Virus record (IMG/VR): IMGVR_UViG_3300046313_000313
Coordinates: 1 to 64,000 of that record
Source of the DNA: a virus
Reading direction: 5' to 3' (one strand)
Length of the DNA stretch: 64,000 bases
Below are positions 4,703 to 59,492 of the stretch, in pieces. Every line of letters begins with the position of its first letter. Within the stretch, counting starts at the first letter, position 1. The notes beneath the pieces are model-generated. The model was not told where the DNA came from, did not search any database, and saw only the letters and a list, made by a program, of their open reading frames with translations. A program made the translations under genes and the position numbers.

Positions 4703-6018
4703 CTTATTGTCCAGTAAAGTCGCTCAGCTTCACAGCTTACTCTCTTTACCCGGTGTGCTAAGACACCCGCCTGTACTTTCATACAGGAACAGACTATATC
4801 TTCATCCTTCCTTTCGGTTAGGATGTCTCCCATTTCGAATCTTGCTAAGATCCTACGCCTTACGGCTAGTCGTTGGCCACACCCCATGTAAGTATATATG
4901 TACATACTTAGTTAGGAGCTTCGGTGCGGATTGCCCATATATCTTTATTAGTTTTACCTTACCTGTGTGATTAGCACAGCCGTTAACTCATTTTCATGGT
5001 TAAGTTGGTCAATAAAGTTTTGGGGGTTCCCCGGCAATTAGAGAGATTTTTTGTATTTACATTACTGTAAATAGGTGGCAGGATTTTATATTTCATTGGT
5101 AGTTACCAGACTTATTTCGATGTGTCGATCTAGCTAAGTCTAAAGATATTCTCTGGCCAGGTGGTAAATCCAGTCAGATATCTTAAAATGTAGTTCTCAT
5201 ATGGGATTTCATGATTATCATCCAAAAGCTCTATGACTTTATTTTGGTCTAGCTTAGTTTGATTTATAAAATCTTGAAAATTCCATACGGTTTGTTTACG
5301 CTCAGTGACATTGTAAACAATTATATCGAAAGTGTTGAACAACGTTTCCTTAAAACCTAAACCGCGAAGTAGTCTTGTTTTAAACTTCTCACGGTCTATA
5401 TTTAGTTGTCTTATCCACTCTTCAATAGGTTGTATTATATCACCGTACTTGACGTTTTGATGGTAGTATCTTACATTCACCATTTGCTCTCTTGGATTAC
5501 TCCATTTACAATTAGCTTTGTAATAACCCTTATCGCCGTCTATTCTGTCGAGCGTTGTGTTGTCCGGTCTTGGACCCATATCGTCGTAAAAGTGCTTGAA
5601 TGACTTAAGCCAGCTTTCACATATGGTGATCCCGCGTTCACCGTAAAGATGGTATTTTATGTTATTTTTATTAGTGCAACGCTGGATCATATTCTCCCAA
5701 GTAGAATATTCCCTGCTTTGCCATAAACCATGCTTTGTTTTATTAGCCTGACGGTAACACCCACAACTTTTATTTGTAGGTCTTTTCAATAGAGGTAGAC
5801 ATATATTTTTAATTACGCCGCAATCACACTGGCATTTAAAAATACGCCCGCTCTTACCCATCGGAGCTTCTTCGAGAACTGTTAACATATTGAAACGTTG
5901 TCCAATATCAATCTTGCTTCTGCTCATTTCATACTCACCTCTTTCTTTTAAATGATTTCAAATCGACACATCTGAAATCTAGGTTGTTGTTCTACCAATG
6001 AACTATAAATTTTTATTT
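4703..6018 (-). mobile_element. group I intron in the RNAP beta gene, with HNH gene
   Basis: The intron is 1,316 bases. The 5' exon ends ...CATGGTGGT and the intron ends ...CAATAAG before AAAGGC. The first step needs U at the 5' site and G at the 3' end, and both are present. P1 can form between exon GGTGGT and an internal guide GCCACC lying after the HNH ORF (about 5073-5078), with the required U-G pair, so the ORF sits in the P1 loop. The core (about 4780-5040) has the group I pieces GGGCAATCCGCA and GAAGATATAGTC. Long near-identical stretches are shared with both beta' introns. Confidence 0.88.
5130..5927 (-). CDS. HNH-family homing endonuclease (intron-encoded)
   Basis: The product is 265 aa. 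It begins with a Cys-rich zinc-binding stretch (CQCDCG ... SCGCY, residues about 32-57) followed by the YSTWENMIQRC, YGERGI and DMGPRP...TLDRID...GYYKANCKWS pattern typical of phage HNH endonucleases that cut near intron insertion sites. A C-terminal part of about 110 residues probably binds DNA. It lies wholly inside the beta-gene intron and would promote spread of that intron to intron-less phage RNAP genes. The RBS GAGGTGAGT lies just upstream of the start. It is AT-richer than its neighbours, as expected for a mobile gene. Confidence 0.88.
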   Translation of the reverse strand: MSRSKIDIGQRFNMLTVLEEAPMGKSGRIFKCQCDCGVIKNICLPLLKRPTNKSCGCYRQANKTKHGLWQSREYSTWENMIQRCTNKNNIKYHLYGERGITICESWLKSFKHFYDDMGPRPDNTTLDRIDGDKGYYKANCKWSNPREQMVNVRYYHQNVKYGDIIQPIEEWIRQLNIDREKFKTRLLRGLGFKETLFNTFDIIVYNVTERKQTVWNFQDFINQTKLDQNKVIELLDDNHEIPYENYILRYLTGFTTWPENIFRLS

Positions 6019-8153: not shown

Positions 8154-9491
8154 TCAGTAGTATCCGGTTCCTGGATACCTAACGTTTCCAGCCATGGCAG
8201 GTTGCGGCCAGCCATTTTGCGGGGACGCTATCTGTTGTTGCTGCATAGGTTGTTGAAACTGCGGTGGGTAACCATGCATCTGCTGCTGCATCGGCATCTG
8301 TTGAGGATGTCCTTGCATAGGCATTTGCATAGGTCGACCATAGCTGTCATACACAACACCCATAGGCTGCATGGGCATTTGCTGCATAGGCATGGGTTGC
8401 ACAGGACGCCCATATGGATCGTAGGCCATAGGCATTTGCTGAGGTACAAATTGACCGTTACTTTGAGTAGCTTGCTCAAAGCTGACTTTACCATTCTTAT
8501 TAGCCGGAGCTTGTGGCTTTGGCTGTTGGACTGGCATTGTGCTCATCTGAGGCATCATCTGAACAGCTGTCTGTGTAGACTCTGGCTCAGTTGGTGCTTT
8601 GGGTGTCAGACTTCCGTCACTTCCATACTGCACAGGAATGCGCAATATTTCAGCTTTCAGAGAGTCAATATCCCGCATAGCGTCAAGCCAATCAGATGCA
8701 AACATGCATTGCTCATTCTCGTCGATGTAATCTTTGTAGATCTCAACGAGGTCATTGATGCGTGCAGTTATCTTGGCTGAACCAAACATCAACACATCCA
8801 GATAAGGAATAGTGCTGTTATTGCTACCGTAGTTATAACTCTCTTGCTTCTCCAGATCAGGAAAGACAAACTCAAACATCTTCTGAAGACATTCTTTGTC
8901 CTTGATGCGCAGGTGATCAACAGGAAGTCCGTTAGGAGTTTCTTTCTCTTTGGTCAGTTGCTCATAGAACGGGAATGACACCACAGATACCCGAGTACAG
9001 CGCTTGCCTTGGTAAGACGCACCGCGATTCAGATAAAGAGACACAAAGCCTTTGTCAGGCTTGTTCTTCACTGCATGTGTCATGATTTTGACAAAGTTTG
9101 TCAAAGTCTTCATGTCAGCATCCATACCCATGTTGAACAACTCAGCTTGCTGAGGGTTCATTTGGTTATGAAGGTCTGGACTGGCCAGAATGTTGATCAG
9201 AGTCTGAAGCAGGTAACATGTCGAGATATTGATCTTCGTCATGATCTTCTGTTTCAGCAGGCTGATCACAACAGACTCACCTTTAAAGATGTTCTCCGCC
9301 ATGGGGTGAAAGATCATCTTTTCACTGGGATTGAAGTTCCTCAACTGTTGATCATAAGGCATCACCAGTTGCTTTCCTTCAATCAGGATCGATTCATTAC
9401 CTGACCCGTAGGCATTCTTAATGAACCCACTCTTGTCTACCTTCATGGTGGCGTATTCAAGAATGGCTTCGTAAACATCCAACAGTTTCAT
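8154..9491 (-). CDS. phiKZ-like conserved protein with Met/Gln/Pro-rich tail (445 aa)
   Basis: Residues 1-300 look globular with no motif I can name. From about residue 320 to the end the protein is low-complexity, with repeats of MPMQ/QQMPMQ and two near-copies of Y-D-(P/S)-Y-G-R-P. Such tails are flexible and often mediate assembly or condensation. It lies between the putative fifth RNAP subunit and the beta gene in the transcription operon, so a link to transcription or the phage nucleus is possible but only inferred from position. Confidence 0.75.
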   Translation of the reverse strand: MKLLDVYEAILEYATMKVDKSGFIKNAYGSGNESILIEGKQLVMPYDQQLRNFNPSEKMIFHPMAENIFKGESVVISLLKQKIMTKINISTCYLLQTLINILASPDLHNQMNPQQAELFNMGMDADMKTLTNFVKIMTHAVKNKPDKGFVSLYLNRGASYQGKRCTRVSVVSFPFYEQLTKEKETPNGLPVDHLRIKDKECLQKMFEFVFPDLEKQESYNYGSNNSTIPYLDVLMFGSAKITARINDLVEIYKDYIDENEQCMFASDWLDAMRDIDSLKAEILRIPVQYGSDGSLTPKAPTEPESTQTAVQMMPQMSTMPVQQPKPQAPANKNGKVSFEQATQSNGQFVPQQMPMAYDPYGRPVQPMPMQQMPMQPMGVVYDSYGRPMQMPMQGHPQQMPMQQQMHGYPPQFQQPMQQQQIASPQNGWPQPAMAGNVRYPGTGYY

Positions 9492-17157: not shown

Positions 17158-17487
17158 CTAGCTTTAACTAAGTTCGCTAAACTTATTGATCTTGCTTAAG
17201 GATCCTGATACTTTCATATCAGATTAGACTATATCTTCATCTTTCGATGCTCTTCGTTTCCACTCGCTTGAGTGTACTCCCATGTGGGATAGTCGTTGAC
17301 CACACTCCATGTAAGTATATATGTCTATACTTAGTTAGGAGCTTCGGTGCGGATTGCCCAATCCTTGTATCTTTTACCATACCCAGATAGTTACTCTGGC
17401 CACTGCATATATTTCTATCGCAGTTTGGTGCACAAGGCTCTAAGGAGTTTCCCGCAATTAGAAGAGTTTAAACGACGGCAACACTCT
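17158..17487 (-). mobile_element. ORF-less group I intron 2 of the beta' gene
   Basis: The intron is about 330 bases with no room for an ORF. P1 is clear: exon GACGGT pairs with the internal guide GCCGTC at about 17474-17479, with the U-G pair at the splice site. Core pieces are GGGCAATCCGCA (about 17349), GTCAACGACTATCCC and GAAGATATAGTC (about 17235). A segment of more than 50 bases around 17300-17360 is almost identical to the intron in the beta gene. The 3' end is uncertain by a few bases (G at 17158 or 17152). Confidence 0.85.
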
Positions 17488-17508
17488 ACCGTCAAAATCA
17501 GCATTTGG
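17488..17508 (-). CDS. RNA polymerase beta' N-terminal half, 21-base exon 2 (PNADFDG)
   Basis: This micro-exon reads P-N-A-D-F-D-G, the first part of the NADFDGD motif that holds the catalytic magnesium in all multi-subunit RNA polymerases. It joins in frame to exon 1 (...LTVRA, ending at 19500) on one side and exon 3 on the other. The upstream intron ends in CAATAAG (G at 17509), as in the beta gene, and the downstream intron starts after the T of GACGGT. Confidence 0.88.
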
Positions 17509-19499
17509 CTTATTGTCCAGTAAAGTCGCTCAGCTTCACAGCTTACCCTCTTTACCCGGTGCGCTTACACACCCACCTGTACTTTCATACAGGAACAGAT
17601 CATATCTTCATCCTTATTAAAGGATGCTCTCCGCTTCTTCCCTGCTTAGGGCTTTACTCGGTCGCAACTCCGATGATCGTTGAACTTTACGCATGGTTGA
17701 TAAGAATCAACTTTAGCGTCTTAGCTGCTGATTACCCAATTCTTATATTTTTCAAACTATCACGCTCATCGTTTCCGATCACGTTGTAGTATATAAGACT
17801 CTAAAGGACTTCCCAGCAATTCAAAGAGATAACTTAGTCAATTACTCAACTAAGTGCCTTATCTCATCATTATTAAAATACAATGTCAATCGCCACACAC
17901 CGCCTATCAATGCTTTTCTTCTAGCTATTGTAGGGATATATTGTCTAGCATACCCAAATTGCTGACTAATATCTATAGGACTTGTTATAATCCTAGTTTC
18001 GCCAGTTTCAACGTTTTCGATAAAATATCCGTTACCCCTAAAAGATCTTTTATCGAGACATAATTGTTTAAAGTACCTCAGCTCCTTATCGGTAAGATCT
18101 TTAAACTGTCCGTTGAAACTAAATTGCCAACCTTTAATCGGAATGTTCTTTAATCTTTTATTTTTAATAGATAGTTGAACACCCCATGAAACACCAGTTA
18201 TTTTCTCACAAGCTGCCAGCGATTCAAATTTACGTTCTTTGCGTGTGAATATATTTCTAGCAGTAACTGGTATTTTTATTTGTAAATCTTCTAAGGATGG
18301 TTTTTCCTGAGGCCATGGTCTTGCATCTAATTTTCGTTTGAAACATAATCCGTCTGAATAGATTTTAATATCGGAAGATCTAAGTCTGACGGACACGGTT
18401 AGTTCAGAATATCCAAGTTTCAGAGAGCAATCCCTAGCACTTTTATATTCAGTCACCTCATCCGTGATTATGTTTTTAACAAGTATTGCTGAACCATACC
18501 TGAATTGATCGTACTCATTTTCTAAATTTTCATAATTTTTCCATTCTTTTAATTCAGATAGCCATTGAAACTGCATGTAATTTTCCCAAAGTTTACAACC
18601 GGGTTTTGTTTTTAACCGATGGTAAAGTAAATCATTACTCAAGCCTAATGCAATTGCGCATTGCGTCGGGTTATCATAAATAGTGATTTCATTGGTTTTA
18701 ACATTTCTAGTTATGACGTCTATGGTATACTTTTTCTCATTTTCAAGAATTCTATTTACTTTTTCATCAGATCTATCACAATTCGAATAAATGACATTTC
18801 CTCTAGGTGTCACCCATTCTAAATTATCTAAGGTGTCAAAGCCAGGTATCTCATTTTTATGATTTACGTACAGCGATTCAACGTTTCTAGGATAATCTAG
18901 CCATGCTAAGCACATAGCTCTGTGTCTGAAAAATTTGTAAGATGTATTCTCATTAAGGGAAACATCAGGAATACCTGAATAGGAATGGTAACCATCTCTA
19001 TCACAAAAAGCTTTTTTATCCACACCAGTTATCAAATTTCTAACTTTTCCTTCCTTTGTTATACCATATCTTGTAAAACCAGGAATATAAGCATGATCTT
19101 TGTGTACTGGATGTGATAAACCAACTGGAAATTTCCAAATCAAGTTGCTAGGATGAGAGTTATTAAAATCACCGTCCTCGAACATCAAGTGTAATAAATG
19201 CACTTGACTTTCATGAACGTGAACGGGCTTAAAAGCCGAAGCTATGATAAACTCTATTGGATATAGACCAGGACCTCTTATCCAATCTAAGAAAATCAAA
19301 GTGCTTCCTGTTTCAGTTGAGATACACTCAATCTGAATGTTCTCTCGCGATATGACATCACCTTCTGAGTTAACAGAATAACGACCGTCAGACCAGGGTA
19401 GCGAAAGATAGTTTTGGGTTTGTAAATATTTACTAAGCATATATCCTTTCTATATAGAAAGGTATGCTAAACGGCGATTGACAATAATGATAAGAATTA
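17509..19499 (-). mobile_element. group I intron 1 of the beta' gene, with HNH gene
   Basis: The intron is 1,991 bases. The 5' exon ends GTGCGCGCT; the intron ends CTGGACAATAAG, with some 50 terminal bases almost identical to the beta-gene intron. The group I core is about 17580-17830. The first 30 intron bases (UUAUCAUUAUUGUCAAUCGCC) can pair with the end of the endonuclease ORF (GGCGAUUGACA ... AAUAAUGAUGAGA, about 17868-17905), closing the ORF into a long peripheral stem. I could not identify the internal guide with confidence. Confidence 0.85.
17842..19440 (-). CDS. HNH homing endonuclease with NUMOD-type DNA-binding repeats (532 aa)
   Basis: Encoded inside beta' intron 1. Residues about 190-220 form an HNH motif (VNHKNEIPG...LDNLEWVTPRGN). 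An earlier copy at about 80-103 (LHLMFEDGDFNNSHPSNLIW) looks like a second, probably degenerate HNH module. The C-terminal half carries four repeats of the NUMOD1 type (for example VKNIITDEVTEYKSARDCSLKL and IENVETGETRIITSPIDISQ) that read DNA sequence. I-HmuI-like enzymes of SPO1-type phages have this build. The RBS AGAAAGGATAT precedes the ATG. It should cut intron-less beta' genes. Confidence 0.9.
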   Translation of the reverse strand: MLSKYLQTQNYLSLPWSDGRYSVNSEGDVISRENIQIECISTETGSTLIFLDWIRGPGLYPIEFIIASAFKPVHVHESQVHLLHLMFEDGDFNNSHPSNLIWKFPVGLSHPVHKDHAYIPGFTRYGITKEGKVRNLITGVDKKAFCDRDGYHSYSGIPDVSLNENTSYKFFRHRAMCLAWLDYPRNVESLYVNHKNEIPGFDTLDNLEWVTPRGNVIYSNCDRSDEKVNRILENEKKYTIDVITRNVKTNEITIYDNPTQCAIALGLSNDLLYHRLKTKPGCKLWENYMQFQWLSELKEWKNYENLENEYDQFRYGSAILVKNIITDEVTEYKSARDCSLKLGYSELTVSVRLRSSDIKIYSDGLCFKRKLDARPWPQEKPSLEDLQIKIPVTARNIFTRKERKFESLAACEKITGVSWGVQLSIKNKRLKNIPIKGWQFSFNGQFKDLTDKELRYFKQLCLDKRSFRGNGYFIENVETGETRIITSPIDISQQFGYARQYIPTIARRKALIGGVWRLTLYFNNDEIRHLVE

Positions 19500-30282: not shown

Positions 30283-31108
30283 GATTGGCGTTTACATTAT
30301 CCAAAGTGTTGCTATCATCTTTGGGTATTACGTCAGACAAGAAGTTCTCGTAGCTTAGAGGTTTGTTGGTAAAAGCCATAGGTGGTAGTTTACCCCAGTG
30401 ACGTTCGTACCACACTCTGTGTAAATGTGAAATAAAGATTTTCACAGTCCATCTGCGTGCTCTGGCATCTATGTGTGATGCAGTGAGCATACCTTGTTCT
30501 AGCACTTCTCTTACCTGAGGGTTACTAGATCGACTGTGATCTAAATATTTCTTAGCTGTTTCAGCGTAAACTTTGTTTTCGTTATTCTCTGTTTCCTGCT
30601 GCTTTCTGCTTAGATAGAGCTTACCATACAGACAGTTTGGATTATCGCTAAAGGTTTTAAAGCTATAACCAATCAACCAAGTAATCCTTTTGAGATGTTG
30701 GTTGTATTTCTGTTGATCGACTGTTCTGTCAAAAGCACTAGAACGATTAGGGTCTAATCCACAATAAGACCAAATATGACCTACCGTATTGGCTTTAGCA
30801 ATATCGATCGTAGACAAAAGACCTGCTGCCAAGATAGGACTAACTCCATAGACCTTAGAAAACCACCCACCCATTTCATGTTCGTCAACATAACGAGTAA
30901 GTAGTTTCTTATAATCTTTCTCACGCTTCTCAAGACTTTTAAGTTCTTCTTGAAGCAGAGTCAGGTTGGTGTGTCCATCGTGATCAGCTGTGTTGAGACG
31001 ATTTTGGATCTTTTGTTTGTTGTTCTGGTGATCGTAATAAAGGTTCACCAGAAGACGCGCATCTGCATCATGAATGATAGCAGACGGCTGGAAGAGTTTA
31101 GAAAACAT
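30263..31108 (-). CDS. orphan IS110/IS116-type transposase C-terminal domain protein
   Basis: The 281-aa product has a coiled-coil start (about 15-80) followed by GVSPILAAGLLSTIDI...GHIWSYCGLDPNRSS and LKRITWLIGYSF, the helix-hairpin-helix and serine segment of IS110-family (Transposase_20) proteins. The N-terminal DEDD RuvC-like domain of an active IS110 transposase is absent, and there are no element ends around the gene. It therefore looks like a domesticated phage gene rather than an insertion sequence. It heads the operon that runs to 29048. Confidence 0.7.
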   Translation of the reverse strand: MFSKLFQPSAIIHDADARLLVNLYYDHQNNKQKIQNRLNTADHDGHTNLTLLQEELKSLEKREKDYKKLLTRYVDEHEMGGWFSKVYGVSPILAAGLLSTIDIAKANTVGHIWSYCGLDPNRSSAFDRTVDQQKYNQHLKRITWLIGYSFKTFSDNPNCLYGKLYLSRKQQETENNENKVYAETAKKYLDHSRSSNPQVREVLEQGMLTASHIDARARRWTVKIFISHLHRVWYERHWGKLPPMAFTNKPLSYENFLSDVIPKDDSNTLDNVNANHDEELQ

Positions 31109-34615: not shown

Positions 34616-34927
34616 TGGTAGGCAGGATGAGATTCGAACTCACTATCTTCGGCTTCACATTTGTGTTAGTTTCCTAACTCTGTGGACTATATCACCATCC
34701 TTAACTTAATATTAGGATGTCGGGCGCTTTACTCTGTTATTAAGAAGATTCTACTTCTCAGATAGTCTCTGCACTTTCCTAGGGTATACCCTAAGCTTAG
34801 CTCAGTATTGCCGTCGTCATTATACGTTACGGTTTCACTGAATTCACCCGATTATTCAATACTGATTACTCAGTAAGGTCACCATTGAGATGAGGCCGCC
34901 GCTTATAACCCCTTAAGCTTCCCGCCT
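34616..34927 (-). tRNA. tRNA with CAU anticodon (Ile2 or Met), interrupted by a group I intron
   Basis: Acceptor AGGCGGG / CCTGCCT, D-arm GCTT..AAGC, T-arm GTGAG TTCGAAT CTCAT, and an encoded ACCA end. The anticodon arm is split: the 5' half ends CTCAT (anticodon CAU at 34-36) and the 3' half begins AAGCCGA. One mismatch (27-43) remains in the anticodon stem and position 8 is A instead of U. The adjacent lysidine synthetase gene favours tRNA-Ile(CAU, lysidine) over Met. Confidence 0.82.
34656..34889 (-). mobile_element. group I intron in the CAU tRNA (ORF-less)
   Basis: 234 bases, inserted directly 3' of the anticodon (after U36). P1 can form between exon TCAT and GTGA at about 34879-34882, with the U-G pair. 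The last intron base is G (34656). Core pieces of the CAGAGACTAT / AGTCC type (P7) are visible around 34680-34770. Confidence 0.75.
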
Positions 34928-34936
34928 ATTTTACAC

Positions 34937-35240
34937 TGGTCCGCCCGGCAAGAATCGAACTTGCAACTAAAACTTAGCGTCACACTATAGTTTTCACTAC
35001 CAGGTTACCCTGTTTGTGCGCTGGACTTTGTCTTGATCATGACCTACTTATGATAGGTTTTAGATCTTTGCCGTCAAGTCTCTACACGTTCTATCCCTTT
35101 TGAAAAAGATAGCTTCGCTCGGCGTTGGCATCAGCATTACCTGTTAAGCGTTCACCGAATTTGACAAAATTCACTGAATACTTTCGACATCCAGTGCTCC
35201 TAATTGAAGGTTCTTGTTATATCCATTTAACTACGGGCAG
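34937..35240 (-). tRNA. tRNA-Arg(UCU), interrupted by a group I intron
   Basis: Acceptor CTGCCCG / CGGGCGG, D-arm GTTA..TAAC, T-arm GCAAG TTCGATT CTTGC and encoded ACCA. Anticodon stem AGAAC / GTTTT. Joining the loop halves CTT and CTAA gives the 7-base loop CU-UCU-AA, anticodon UCU. It lies 9 bases upstream of the CAU tRNA in the same transcript. Confidence 0.85.
34978..35206 (-). mobile_element. group I intron in tRNA-Arg (ORF-less)
   Basis: 229 bases, inserted after U34 inside the anticodon. P10 is visible: the 3' exon CUAA pairs with UUAG just upstream of the guide GAG, which pairs with exon CUU (short P1 with U-G). Core pieces resemble those of the tRNA-Leu intron (GCATCAGCA...GGCATCAGCA and the P7 pair), so the tRNA introns form a family distinct from the RNAP introns. 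Confidence 0.78.
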
Positions 35241-46269: not shown

Positions 46270-46317
46270 TTTAATACCGTTGTTGTAGTTACAGTCAAAT
46301 AATTTCGGGTAAAAAAA

Positions 46318-46394
46318 TAAGGGCGGGACAGTTTGTATCTGCTTGTGACAACCGAGTCTGGGTAGACTGATCACTTGCATCAACAAACTGTCCC
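46318..46394 (-). terminator. long branched hairpin at the end of the second tRNA island
   Basis: The outer stem GGGACAGTTTG / CAAACTGTCCC encloses a smaller CAGTCTACCCAGACT hairpin and is followed on the minus strand by GCCCTTATTTTTTT, the form of a terminator for the tRNA/ncRNA transcript. Confidence 0.7.
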
Positions 46395-46404
46395 TAATTA
46401 AGAA

Positions 46405-46500
46405 CAAAGCCAACATGAATCGAACATGTTAAGTAAATATAACCTTCTACGCAGAATAGCACTGCTCCAGTTAATTTACTTGCCTCTACCAGACGGCTTT
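46405..46500 (-). tRNA. tRNA-like structure without a normal anticodon arm (degenerate or TLS)
   Basis: Acceptor AAAGCCG / TGGCTTT, a D-loop-like T-C-TGGTAGAGG and a perfect T-arm ACATG TTCGATT CATGT are present. Instead of a normal D-stem and anticodon arm there is a long stem AAGTAAAT-TAAC / GTTA-T-ATTTACTT capped by GCAG-TGCTATT-CTGC. No CCA is encoded (position 73 is G followed by TTC). It may be a degenerate tRNA or the tRNA-like end of the large RNA upstream. Identity as a working tRNA is doubtful. Confidence 0.4.
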
Positions 46501-47660
46501 GTTTCTCTATTTATTACAAGATAGAGAAGGATGTGTCAGTCACCGCATCCAAGATATTTATAACACCGACTCGTGTTACCGGTTTGTCCAAACCTGGTGA
46601 AAGGATAAGCTACATCTGTTTAACTCAATCGCCACATACCCAGTAGTTCAGGTAAGGGTTAAGATGATTGTGCTATAATAAGCACAGAGCCTTAATACGA
46701 CAGTGTTTTAATTCATCAACATAACACTGAAGATACCCGAGTTCTCAATAGAGAATCTCGCTGTATTTTTGATGCCTAAGCACTCTAAAGCTATCTCTCC
46801 TAAAATAAGAGATAGCTTATAGGCTGCTCTCTGGGGTGATCAATCCCAAAGTTTACAACTTCCCAAAGATATCATTCATACAGTTCCCGACCAAGGGTAG
46901 TCTATATAAGAGATATCCATAGGGCGTACGATTTGGCGGTTGGTTAGACCACCTTCTACTCCTTAACAAAAAGTTAAAGGCAGGCTATTATCGTGAGCGC
47001 ACCTCTTTCTATTACACACTTGTGATGTGTTTCGTCCTTGTGTTTAAAGCCTTAGGACTCATCAGATAGATAAGGCTCAAATGAAGTTTATGTGGCCTCA
47101 TTCTTTTATAAAGGGGTTTTCCCATAGCAGACTAAATGACTTCTGTCTATCTAATCTGCTACAGGCAAACACCTGAGTGCTAACTTGTTATCATATCACA
47201 AAGGTAGATAACCACAACCTATTACAATAAAGACGTGTGAATCGCCTGCTTGCTTTGGCAAGAACAGCCCTCGAAGCTAGAGCCACATCAGGTCTGAACA
47301 ATCGTCAGAACACATGATCCCAGGGGATTTAAAAAGCATCAAACACAGTTCTGGGAAACTATGTGCTAGATCGACAGTTTATATTTTCCTTGTTTTATCA
47401 ACTAAGTGAAAATACCGATCACTTTATACTGCTCCATCGTGCGTGTATTTTGTTATCACGCTAACGTCCCGATAGTACGTTTACCTAAGTTACCAATGGT
47501 CAATACCTGCACCCTAGCCTTACGCCCGCAAGCGATCTATTAACTTAACTCCGTAATCCGCAATGATATACGCACATTAAGAAATGTTTACACACTAGAT
47601 TTACTAAGCAGCGACTTGTTAGTTACCATTGATACGATCAAGTCTACTCCGGTTTACTTA
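46501..47660 (-). ncRNA. 1.2-kb structured ORF-free RNA containing a hammerhead ribozyme
   Basis: No credible ORF in 1,160 bases. On the minus strand there are many strong hairpins: GAGATTCTCTATTGAGAACTC; AGCTATCTCTTATTTTAGGA then GAGATAGCT; GGTGGTCTAACCAACC; CACCAGGTTTGGACAAACC type arms; CCTTTAACTTTTTGTTAAGG. The segment starts after an intron-containing tRNA cluster and ends in a tRNA-like structure. It resembles the large ornate RNAs (GOLLD, ROOL classes) found beside phage tRNAs, but the family is not proven. Confidence 0.55.
47005..47074 (-). ncRNA. hammerhead ribozyme (open at stem I)
   Basis: Every conserved core position is present on the minus strand: CUGAUGA (47065-47059), stem II GUCC / GGAC (47058-47055 with 47037-47034), GAAA (47033-47030), stem III ACACA / UGUGU (47030-47026 with 47018-47014) closed by a UCACAAG loop, cleavage triplet GUA with scission after A at 47013, and stem I UCUAU / AUAGA (47070-47066 with 47012-47008). 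It would cut the 1.2-kb structured RNA in two. Confidence 0.87.
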
Positions 47661-47667
47661 GGTTAAA

Positions 47668-47722
47668 TGGTACCAGGAACGGGACTCGAACCCGTAAGAC
47701 CCTTGCGGAAGTATTAAGTTTT
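47668..47722 (-). tRNA. 3' half of a split tRNA (partner of 48557-48587)
   Basis: It holds a T-arm ACGGG TTCGAGT CCCGT, acceptor strand TCCTGGT and an encoded ACCA end. The only matching 5' acceptor strand (ACCAGGA) lies about 870 bases upstream at 48581-48587, beyond tRNA-Leu and an HNH gene. A long variable arm (ACTTCCGCAAGGGTCT) suggests a Tyr, Ser or Leu type tRNA. I could not rebuild an anticodon stem from the two halves, so the gene may be inactive. Confidence 0.6.
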
Positions 47723-47733
47723 TAAAGTACATG

Positions 47734-48044
47734 GGTGGCCCGCTCCGGAATCGAACCGGAACGCCCCTTACGAAAGCGTCAGATTTTAAGTCTGATCTCT
47801 ACCACTGCAGTTTTCACTGCCACTTTAGTGTGTTTGTGGTCTGGACTATCCCTTCAACTACATCCTAAATGTTTAGCTGGGCGATTATAGTCTCTGCACG
47901 TCTTTCTATATTTCTATAGAAATTTCGCTCAGGATTGGCATCAGCAATTAACTGTTAAGCTTTCCCTGAATTTACGCCATTTTACTACATTATTTCTAAT
48001 GTAGGACACATCAAATATATGTCTACCTATTTCATCAGCGGGCC
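47734..48044 (-). tRNA. tRNA-Leu(UAA), interrupted by a group I intron in the D/anticodon junction
   Basis: Acceptor GGCCCGC / GCGGGCC, D-arm ATG..GGTAGA-CAT, anticodon arm TCAGA CTTAAAA TCTGA (anticodon UAA), long variable arm ACGC..GGCGT, and T-arm TCCGG TTCGATT CCGGA. The 3' end reads ACCC, so CCA is not exactly encoded. The leader and trailer are also complementary: AGTACATGGGT before the 5' end and ACCCATGTACT after the 3' end extend the acceptor to an 18-bp stem. Confidence 0.85.
47797..48018 (-). mobile_element. group I intron in tRNA-Leu between positions 25 and 26 (ORF-less)
   Basis: 222 bases. P1: exon GACAU pairs with GUGUC (48009-48005) with the U-G pair at the splice site. P10: 3' exon AUCAGA pairs with UUUGAU (48015-48010) over six positions. 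The last intron base is G (47797). These pairings fix the insertion to the junction of D-stem and anticodon stem, leaving the anticodon loop intact. The core has the P7 pieces CAGAGACTATA and GATAGTCC. Confidence 0.88.
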
Positions 48045-48055
48045 ACCCATGTACT

Positions 48056-48556
48056 CTATTTCTTTTCTAATCTGTAGTATTCTTTCTTTATTTCAGTTCT
48101 TTCGATGATCACGCCGCCATTTTGAACTTTGGCGCCATAAGAACCTGAACATTTTTTACTACAAAAAGGACCTGCTCTATTAGAAACATAATTAGTTATC
48201 TGATTTTTACTAGGGGTAAATATTTCCTCACACCCAGCACACTTTACAGGATCCACCTTTACTCGTTTAGCGTCTTCACTTGCGTGAACAGGCAGTGTTT
48301 TAACAATAAGGTTATTTAGAGAATTATTGGTGAAATTTCTATCGTGATGGTCAACAGTCTCACCGTCTTTTAACTTTTGTTTTAATTCAATTTCTTTTAA
48401 AGCCTTGGGGTAAGAGATGGTTTTGGTCTTACCTTTAGTCCCCTTAGCAGCTTTTGAATTATTTAAAACAATATGCTGTCGACCATCACTTCTGTGATAA
48501 GGACCTAAGACGGATGTATATTCTGGATATAATCCAAGAAGTATTTGCTTATCCAT
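48056..48556 (-). CDS. HNH endonuclease with zinc-finger end (166 aa)
   Basis: TVDHHDRNFTNNSLNNLIV is the H-N-N type HNH motif (about residues 72-90). The C-terminal part CAGCEEIFTPSKNQ ... FCSKKCSGSYGA carries a CxxC...CxxxC zinc finger like that of phage AP2/HNH endonucleases. The ATG lies 5 bases after the D-stem of a tRNA 5' half (48557-48587), and the stop directly precedes tRNA-Leu(UAA). It is therefore a mobile endonuclease gene within tRNA sequence and may drive homing of the tRNA intron. Confidence 0.85.
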   Translation of the reverse strand: MDKQILLGLYPEYTSVLGPYHRSDGRQHIVLNNSKAAKGTKGKTKTISYPKALKEIELKQKLKDGETVDHHDRNFTNNSLNNLIVKTLPVHASEDAKRVKVDPVKCAGCEEIFTPSKNQITNYVSNRAGPFCSKKCSGSYGAKVQNGGVIIERTEIKKEYYRLEKK

Positions 48557-48651: not shown

Positions 48652-48726
48652 TGGTGCCGGATGTCTGATTTGAACAGACGACCTATCGCTTACAAGGCGA
48701 GTGCTCTACCCCTGAGCTAATCCGGC
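48652..48726 (-). tRNA. tRNA-Thr(UGU)
   Basis: An intact tRNA: acceptor GCCGGAT / ATCCGGC, D-arm GCTC AGGGGTAGA GCAC, anticodon arm CTCGC CTTGTAA GCGA(T), T-arm GTCTG TTCAAAT CAGAC and encoded ACCA. Anticodon UGU. It is the most upstream tRNA of the second island and has no intron. Confidence 0.93.
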
Positions 48727-57947: not shown

Positions 57948-59492
57948 TTACATGTTCAAAGCGTAACCGACACAATACAGATAAGGCGTGACTCCATCAA
58001 AGGACTCCACCATAAAGCTGAATGTATCGATTTTGTTGTTGATCAAAGTAAGAGCTGGAGCTGCACCATCAGGGAACTTCACGTTAGCTGGGAATACAAG
58101 ATCACCACCTTTGTGAATAATAACCACTTTGTAGTCAAAACCTATCCGTGTGAGATCTAAGTTCTGAATATTGAAGTTGGTTACGTTAGAGATTAACTCT
58201 ATACGGATAACCTGATGAGTATCTAAATCCCAAGAAACAGTACCCGAAGCTGGCTGTACTTTATTGGTAGTAGAGACTTTCTGTGGTTTGGTGAAGTTAT
58301 TCTCTGCGGAAGGAGACATGTAGTCTGTACCAGCAGCAGCTAAAGTCAATATGTTGTTGGTAGTCTTTAACAGACCTGTTCCGGCAACGTTGATACCACC
58401 ACCCACACCGCCACCTGTGCTTATTACACTGATGGCGTCTGATAAAGCCACCATATCGGTTATGATACCGTTACCAGTAATACCTGGGGTGATGCCGTTA
58501 ACTATGTCTGATAAAGCAGTTAAGCTTGTGATGTCAGCTTTTAAAACATTTATACCATTGACTGTGTCAGTCAATGCATCTAAGGCAACCTGACTGGCTT
58601 TACTCAGAGAAAGAGCATTTACCGTATCACTTAAGACATCAAGATCTACCTGCGTAGCTTTAAGCTGATTAATTTGATTAACCAAATCACTCAATGCATC
58701 CAAATCTACTTGACTTGCTTTACCAGCTATCAATACAGAATGCGATTGAATAAGGGTAGTCAGTGCGGTGATTTCAGCATTTATAGCTGTAAGGTCTACA
58801 GTACCGCCACCGCCACCACCGCCCCCAGCTTGTAAGTTTGTTACTGCTGTTTGCAGATTGGTAATGATAGTAGACAAACCAGAAGTGTCAGCAATAGCGT
58901 GTCCATGACCAATAGCTGATTTACCTGCTAAACTGGTTTGGATAGAACCTAAACTATCATTCAGTCCCGATATGCTAGACATGTCATGAACATGACTAAC
59001 AGCTGCTTTACCAGCCAATGCTGGTGATAATCCAGCTATAGTAGTCATGTCGTGTACATGACCAGTTTCAGCTTTCATAGACAAAGTCTGTGCTAAGAGA
59101 CTGATATCATCTATAGCGTGCGTATGGCCTAAAGCAGCCTTACCAGCCAACGACAGATCAAGACCACTTATCTCAGAGCTAACGTGCGTATGTCCAAAAT
59201 TAGACTTGCCAGCCAGAGCCGTCATCAAACCTGAGATATCATCTGTAGCTAGGGTATGTGTGTGATTTGCATCAGCTTTACTTAGCAAAGCAGTCAGCAC
59301 AGCAGTTGATACTGGCTTATCGGCATCACTTGTGTTGCTGACATTACCCAGACCCACATCTTGTTTAGTGAGTATAGATTTAAAAGTATTCAGAGTCATT
59401 CGGTAATTCTGATTACCAAATATCAAAGACACTTGTTCCAGACCTGTGGCTGTGGTTAACAGCGAAAAGTCACTTATCTTTCTATTAGCCAT
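57948..59492 (-). CDS. tail fibre protein with G-H-T-H repeats and coiled-coil region (514 aa)
   Basis: The N-terminus KISDFSLLTTATGLEQVSLI is the shared fibre module. Repeats GKSNFGHTHVSSEISGLDLS and similar run to about residue 200. A poly-Gly hinge follows (eight Gly in a row, about 225), then heptad repeats KASQVDLDALSDLVNQINQL and KASQVALDALTDTVNGINVL (trimeric coiled coil), and finally a strand-rich C-terminal domain of about 120 residues that could bind the receptor. Confidence 0.82.
   Translation of the reverse strand: MANRKISDFSLLTTATGLEQVSLIFGNQNYRMTLNTFKSILTKQDVGLGNVSNTSDADKPVSTAVLTALLSKADANHTHTLATDDISGLMTALAGKSNFGHTHVSSEISGLDLSLAGKAALGHTHAIDDISLLAQTLSMKAETGHVHDMTTIAGLSPALAGKAAVSHVHDMSSISGLNDSLGSIQTSLAGKSAIGHGHAIADTSGLSTIITNLQTAVTNLQAGGGGGGGGTVDLTAINAEITALTTLIQSHSVLIAGKASQVDLDALSDLVNQINQLKATQVDLDVLSDTVNALSLSKASQVALDALTDTVNGINVLKADITSLTALSDIVNGITPGITGNGIITDMVALSDAISVISTGGGVGGGINVAGTGLLKTTNNILTLAAAGTDYMSPSAENNFTKPQKVSTTNKVQPASGTVSWDLDTHQVIRIELISNVTNFNIQNLDLTRIGFDYKVVIIHKGGDLVFPANVKFPDGAAPALTLINNKIDTFSFMVESFDGVTPYLYCVGYALNM

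Follow-up and report, generated by a model that had tools for sequence, protein, structure and literature searches.

A hammerhead motif and a conserved downstream structured RNA in a phiKZ-like jumbo phage, with a likely role in 5' end formation

The tRNA island and its two structured RNAs

The window analysed in this study comprises positions 1 to 64,000 of a 72.7 kb virus record (IMGVR_UViG_3300046313_000313). Its DNA polymerase is closest to those of phiKZ-like jumbo phages (41% to Burkholderia phage FLC9), and the virus encodes an RNA polymerase beta subunit. No DNA-level similarity of the window to sequenced phages was found. The locus of interest lies on the minus strand, for which coordinates are given in descending order. 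In this lineage, a tRNA island and a structured RNA, here called RNA A, are located between DprA and a hammerhead motif (47070–47008), which is followed by a second structured RNA, RNA B (47012–46311).

The island starts with a tRNA-Thr (TGT) at 48726–48652, called by both ARAGORN and Rfam, and includes a tRNA-like gene interrupted by a group I intron (48028–47820, Rfam), which confirms the tRNA-island setting proposed in an earlier note on this DNA. The 3' half of a tRNA-Leu was recognised by alignment at 47701–47668; its counterpart in the near relative L123 is intact (9216–9301). RNA A occupies 47667–47079, between this remnant and the hammerhead. It is structured and non-coding (z −5.0 for 47668–47013), and the region as a whole has 94% identity with L123.

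RNA B is the predicted release product of the ribozyme, a structured stretch of ~702 nt (z −9.6 and −10.6). It contains no coding frame except the start of the next gene, and it matches no Rfam family. The models of GOLLD (RF02032) and ROOL gave no match with E up to 10 in 46300–48100, so that RNA A and RNA B were rejected as members of these families. Near the 3' end of RNA B, 46503–46403 adopts a tRNA-like fold, as indicated by structure prediction and by covariation with L123, with a 9-bp acceptor-like stem, D-arm-like and T-arm-like hairpins and a long anticodon-like stem. Neither ARAGORN nor Rfam called a tRNA here, and the sequence has no CCA. A terminator-like hairpin (GGGACAGUUUG...CAAACUGUCCC) with a U tract follows at 46394–46311; it is apparent from sequence and fold, and is kept in L123. 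The earlier note had described a part of about 600 bases that ends in the tRNA-like structure. This agrees with the ~610 nt between the predicted cut and the end of that fold, but the RNA continues for ~90 nt to the terminator.

Between the window and L123, RNA B changed at 14 of 426 paired sites versus 27 of 268 unpaired sites and no pair was broken, a comparison that is supportive rather than conclusive because the structure was optimised on these same two sequences. In a three-sequence alignment including the more distant relative G009, 14 pairs changed on both sides and many others were broken. The conserved core of RNA B, 47012–46755, is 69% identical with G009 and has motifs in common with two further relatives, G037 and G046. 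The tRNA-like fold lies in an extension of RNA B that G009 lacks.

Several other features were observed in the window. Another large structured non-coding stretch (36190–35270, z −4.6) lies upstream of the first tRNA island; it has no Rfam match and is absent from the records of L123, L124 and phage FLC9. Five group I introns score above the Rfam cut-off (4770–5097, 17205–17497, 17576–17886, 34663–34916 and, on the minus strand, 47820–48028), and a sixth (35217–34998) falls just under it. The introns at 34663–34916, 34998–35217 and 47820–48028 appear to sit in tRNA genes. ARAGORN also called a tRNA-Met at 59021–58929, inside the frame of a phage tail-repeat protein (57948–59492), and this call is probably false. 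The gene at 31108–30263 has an IS110/IS116-type transposase domain (Pfam Transposase_20, E 2e-6).

The hammerhead motif and its pseudoknot

The motif contains the complete invariant core of a hammerhead (CUGANGA, GAAA and the A15.1-U16.1 pair) together with an NUH cleavage site. On the minus strand, CUGAUGA is found at 47065–47059 and GAAA at 47033–47030. Stem I (UCUAU, 47070–47066, with AUAGA, 47012–47008) has an open end, which defines type I. Stem II (GUCC, 47058–47055, with GGAC, 47037–47034) and stem III (ACACA, 47030–47026, with UGUGU, 47018–47014, keeping A15.1-U16.1) are both closed by loops. The cleavage triplet is GUA (47015–47013), with A47013 as H17, and the predicted cut lies between A47013 and A47012. 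The minimum free energy fold of 106 nt contains the three hammerhead stems as well as an outer GAGC/GCUC helix. The core bases, the GUA site, the three minus-strand stems, the closed stems II and III and the open stem I had all been claimed in the earlier note, and sequence and fold bear these claims out. The hammerhead is unchanged in an alignment with L123.

Could such a motif arise by chance? The pattern of core plus site occurs once in the 64-kb window and in none of 100 shuffles, while a strict descriptor (stems of at least 5/4/5 bp plus NUH) found 0 matches in 200 strand scans of simulated windows. A seed scan of IMG/VR for half of the hammerhead core (CUGAUGAGUCC...GGACGAAAC) yielded at least 120 stretches. 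In the fetched loci, 127 of 130 half-core matches could be completed to a hammerhead, 93 of them to type I only. A covariance model, R1, was built from 31 distinct type I phage hammerheads, with the window and L123 left out; 12 of its 15 pairs changed on both sides, a statistic that is biased by the choice of examples with good stems. R1 scored the window hammerhead at 40.9 bits (E = 9.1e-12 in 64 kb), with a runner-up of 10.5 bits. The shuffles, the strict descriptor and the R1 score together rule out a chance look-alike.

The one result in favour of a look-alike or an inactive relic is the score of 16.1 bits with the Rfam model Hammerhead_1 (RF00163), under the gathering cut-off of 34 bits. 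Other clear phage hammerheads also fall below this value (26.0 bits in L209, 20.5 bits in G037), and the cut-off serves curation and does not define what a hammerhead is. The choice of GUA is a minority yet normal one, found in 29 of 185 cases in the phage hammerhead set. Against decay or coincidence stand not only the R1 and descriptor results but also the unchanged copy in L123 and the presence of the motif in divergent phages, where compensatory changes have accumulated around an intact core. We therefore regard this reading as very improbable. Judged from its sequence, the window motif is a true hammerhead.

The earlier note did not mention a further pairing, in which AGCCUUA (47077–47071), directly 5' of stem I, pairs with UAAGGCU (47054–47048), the first seven bases of loop II. 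The seven pairs are perfect and flush with stems I and II, and the hammerhead and the preceding pseudoknot strand together span 47077–47008. R1 independently detects hammerheads in the relatives G009, G037 and G046 (E 6e-10 to 5e-9; 1e-9 for G037, 5e-9 for G046), and each has a pseudoknot in the same place: AGUCGUA/UGCGACU in G009, UACCGA/UCGGUA in G037 and ACGUCG/CGACGU in G046. Across the window and these relatives the pseudoknot has 6 or 7 pairs at a distance of at most 2 bases from both stem ends, and the pairing is compensated in differing sequences. Shuffling gave p values of 0.002 for the window and 0.004, 0.012 and 0.019 for the three relatives. Stems II and III and the distal part of stem I covary among the relatives as well. 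A faster reaction is a known effect of pseudoknots that link stems I and II of hammerheads (PMC3088659). The covarying pseudoknot would thus supply the tertiary contact by which the stem I and stem II regions of hammerheads are joined, with a rival hairpin possible.

This rival arises from the same two strands, which alternatively fold as a local hairpin in ViennaRNA, a program whose scoring does not extend to pseudoknots. In longer contexts, the hairpin is predicted to be stabler than the hammerhead, and it could be the first of the two to form as transcription proceeds. Hence, the element might act as a conditional switch, in which the hairpin of tail and loop II blocks the hammerhead, and a signal or the speed of transcription determines whether the RNA is cut. 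The growing transcript and the 121-nt context are indeed both predicted to fold into the hairpin, and a conserved, compensated pairing suits a hairpin as well as a pseudoknot. However, the paired strands abut stems I and II directly, as described for rate-enhancing hammerhead pseudoknots (PMC3088659), and the covariation of stems II and III indicates that the ribozyme fold itself is under selection. A switch is therefore unlikely, and we favour a pseudoknot that stabilises the ribozyme.

The hammerhead and RNA B as a unit

Queries with single DprA or DNA polymerase sequences returned near-identical records only, while an alignment of phiKZ-like polymerases yielded 80 IMG/VR loci and reached G009, G037 and G046. 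When 47 of the corresponding records were searched by BLAST with the RNA region (1.37 kb), one strong match emerged, G009, whose polymerase is 79% identical to that of the window. The 69% identity with G009 coincides exactly with the hammerhead plus the beginning of RNA B; it is found nowhere else in the query. The hammerhead-like matches in G038 and G020 were weak (~19 bits) and were left out of the comparison. In G044, a hammerhead-like match of 23.1 bits is located in a tRNA array.

In all three relatives, the predicted cut is followed by a structured RNA, of 329 nt in G009 (z −6.0), 476 nt in G037 (z −3.8) and 292 nt in G046 (z −4.2), so that RNA B ranges from 292 to 702 nt over the four phages. 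These stretches end in terminator-like hairpins, with a long U tract in the window, G009 and G037; the hairpin of G046 has no long U tract and its 3' end is less certain. They have in common a loosely kept motif, AANCGUACG, and the motif GCAGCCURU, which closes a hairpin with roughly GNGUG on its 3' side. A scan for the RNA B motifs retrieved the known copies and one match in coding sequence, L438, which was rejected as false.

The upstream side is different in each case. In G009 the unit directly follows the genes of thymidylate kinase (TMK) and DprA, leaving no space for RNA A, and in G046 it follows DprA and an 80-aa ORF. No tRNAs were found in the 4–4.5 kb around the units of G009, G037 and G046, and the GOLLD and ROOL models had no match with E up to 1 around them. 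As far as these genomes indicate, the tRNA island is a local context of the window lineage. The earlier note had assumed one large structured RNA across the locus. Two RNAs are a better description, since G009 leaves out RNA A, which folds well alone, and joining RNA A to RNA B gains only ~4 of ~430 kcal/mol. Five more distant phiKZ-like phages have reading frames after DprA and no convincing sign of RNA B, and none of the named isolates examined has the unit.

Our comparison establishes the linkage of the hammerhead to RNA B and the replaceable nature of what precedes it. The conserved unit of hammerhead and RNA B is known from only four independent lineages. With the downstream RNA constant and the upstream neighbour replaceable across these phages, the hammerhead appears to belong to RNA B. 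Hence, the pseudoknot-stabilised type I hammerhead is likely a 5' processing element of RNA B in this phiKZ-like jumbo phage. On the minus strand, passage of the polymerase beyond 47008 would allow the ribozyme to fold, and a cut between A47013 and A47012 would follow shortly after transcription. The cut would free RNA B (47012 to ~46311), with a 5'-OH end, from the co-transcribed upstream RNA, which would consist of the tRNA island and RNA A in the window and of a protein gene in the relatives. Transcription would then end at the terminator, setting the 3' end of RNA B. The persistence of the unit in four lineages lends strong comparative support to the earlier proposal that the downstream RNA starts at 47012. 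In this reading, cleavage would take place in infected cells, RNA B would be the functional product, and its exact 5' end would presumably matter.

Alternatively, the hammerhead might serve the upstream product: it would trim RNA A, or in the relatives the DprA mRNA, at the 3' end to a 2',3'-cyclic phosphate, with RNA B as a mere trailer. In favour of this, RNA A is structured and conserved in L123, and in another phage record, G005, a GOLLD RNA has a hammerhead immediately after its 3' end. Yet, the upstream neighbour varies among the window, G009, G037 and G046 while RNA B is constant, and we consider a service to the upstream RNA improbable.

Hammerheads beside stable RNAs in other phages and known systems

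Hammerheads were also observed near tRNAs and GOLLD RNAs in other phages. The fetched loci contain 258 type I hammerheads, of which 24 have a tRNA no more than 400 nt away, in every case on their own strand; 4.4% of bases are that near to a tRNA, and none of 59 type III hammerheads is. The sample is redundant and these counts are descriptive only. In L067 (8393–8448) the called cut coincides exactly with the 5' end of a tRNA-Tyr. L071 (6477–6679) has two units, of which one likewise has its cut called exactly at a tRNA-Tyr 5' end and the other looks alike by eye, and in L157 (10098–10044) the predicted cut falls one base before a tRNA-Gly. In these three cases, the 3' strand of stem I would double as a strand of the acceptor stem, and tRNA 5' maturation without RNase P is possible. 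Hammerheads at exact tRNA 5' ends look rare; the idea that they are common was rejected after a canonical-tRNA scan returned a single stretch, which has no hammerhead.

Three hammerheads occur in one tRNA array of L209 (1432–2613; record G005, IMGVR_UViG_3300001605_000031). One lies between tRNA-Gln and tRNA-His, and its predicted cut would keep the extra G(−1) on tRNA-His. The other two bracket a GOLLD RNA (Rfam 2076–2550, 198.6 bits), with predicted cuts after ~1681 and ~2607. In the isolate Xanthomonas phage X1 (L212 2562–2647; OQ427096 137898–137983), a hammerhead of 29.3 bits is located directly upstream of the GOLLD 5' domain. X1 and G005 share the conserved hammerhead-GOLLD junction CGUC^UGGUNUAGCAAC. 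A hammerhead at the 5' edge of GOLLD in these two phages is an analogy that supports 5' processing of RNA B. The link with GOLLD is rare: hammerheads as general GOLLD companions were ruled out by their absence from all 117 other GOLLD loci.

A recurring hammerhead, mostly with a GUAG loop II, is found in the tRNA arrays of L023, L035/L098, L070, L117, L136, L147, L175, L178 and L202. It is followed by a similar short non-coding stretch that starts with AGACAGC and contains ACCUURUGGUGUA. The phage contigs L063, L101, L111, L114, L134 and L200 carry several hammerheads each, with stems that covary between copies, and resemble reported multi-hammerhead prophages.

The natural role of most bacterial and phage hammerheads is, to our knowledge, not known. 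Here, one hammerhead is tied to one downstream RNA across divergent jumbo phages, which makes 5' end formation directly testable. Searches of Rfam and of literature that took in few subscription papers and theses did not turn up the unit of hammerhead and RNA B, and the hammerhead-linked RNA B is apparently a family of phage non-coding RNA so far undescribed. The GOLLD and tRNA cases suggest that some phages mature stable RNAs by self-cleaving ribozymes instead of host enzymes. Perhaps, as a more tentative proposal, the hammerhead and RNA B represent a new self-processing class of phage RNA, and hammerheads serve some large phages as dedicated processors of some tRNAs and of large structured RNAs. 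Maturation of these RNAs would then require neither RNase P nor similar nucleases of the host, a possible consequence of transcription in a protected phage compartment. If so, the 5'-OH ends of hammerhead-cut RNAs could also permit ligation into circles; no RNA ligase or RtcB was found among the 20 window proteins scanned.

Type I hammerheads (Rfam RF00163) with pseudoknots between stems I and II, including prophage cases, were described by Perreault et al. 2011 (PMC3088659). The window hammerhead has the same core, stems and cleavage triplet, a pseudoknot in the region of stems I and II, and an intergenic phage site. It differs from them in its loop II of 17 nt, its seven-pair pseudoknot to the stem I tail and its GUA site, and in being tied by conservation to one specific downstream structured RNA.

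GOLLD and ROOL are large ornate RNAs, and GOLLD can contain tRNAs (PMC12286853). Like these, the window has a large structured RNA in or near a phage tRNA island, and like GOLLD in G005 and X1, it has a hammerhead at the 5' edge. In contrast, RNA A and RNA B match neither of these two families, and the 117 other GOLLD loci have no hammerhead.

Gut phages carry tRNA-associated theta ribozymes, which are of the HDV-like kind and cleave at the 3' ends of tRNAs (PMC10879173). Theta ribozymes cut within 5 nt of such an end, whereas the nearest one here, that of the tRNA-Leu remnant at 47668, lies ~655 nt upstream of the predicted cut. The two systems are alike in that a small self-cleaving ribozyme, located in a stable-RNA region of a phage, is proposed to mature the adjacent RNA. 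They differ in that the window ribozyme is a hammerhead, and would form the 5' end of an RNA that is not a tRNA.
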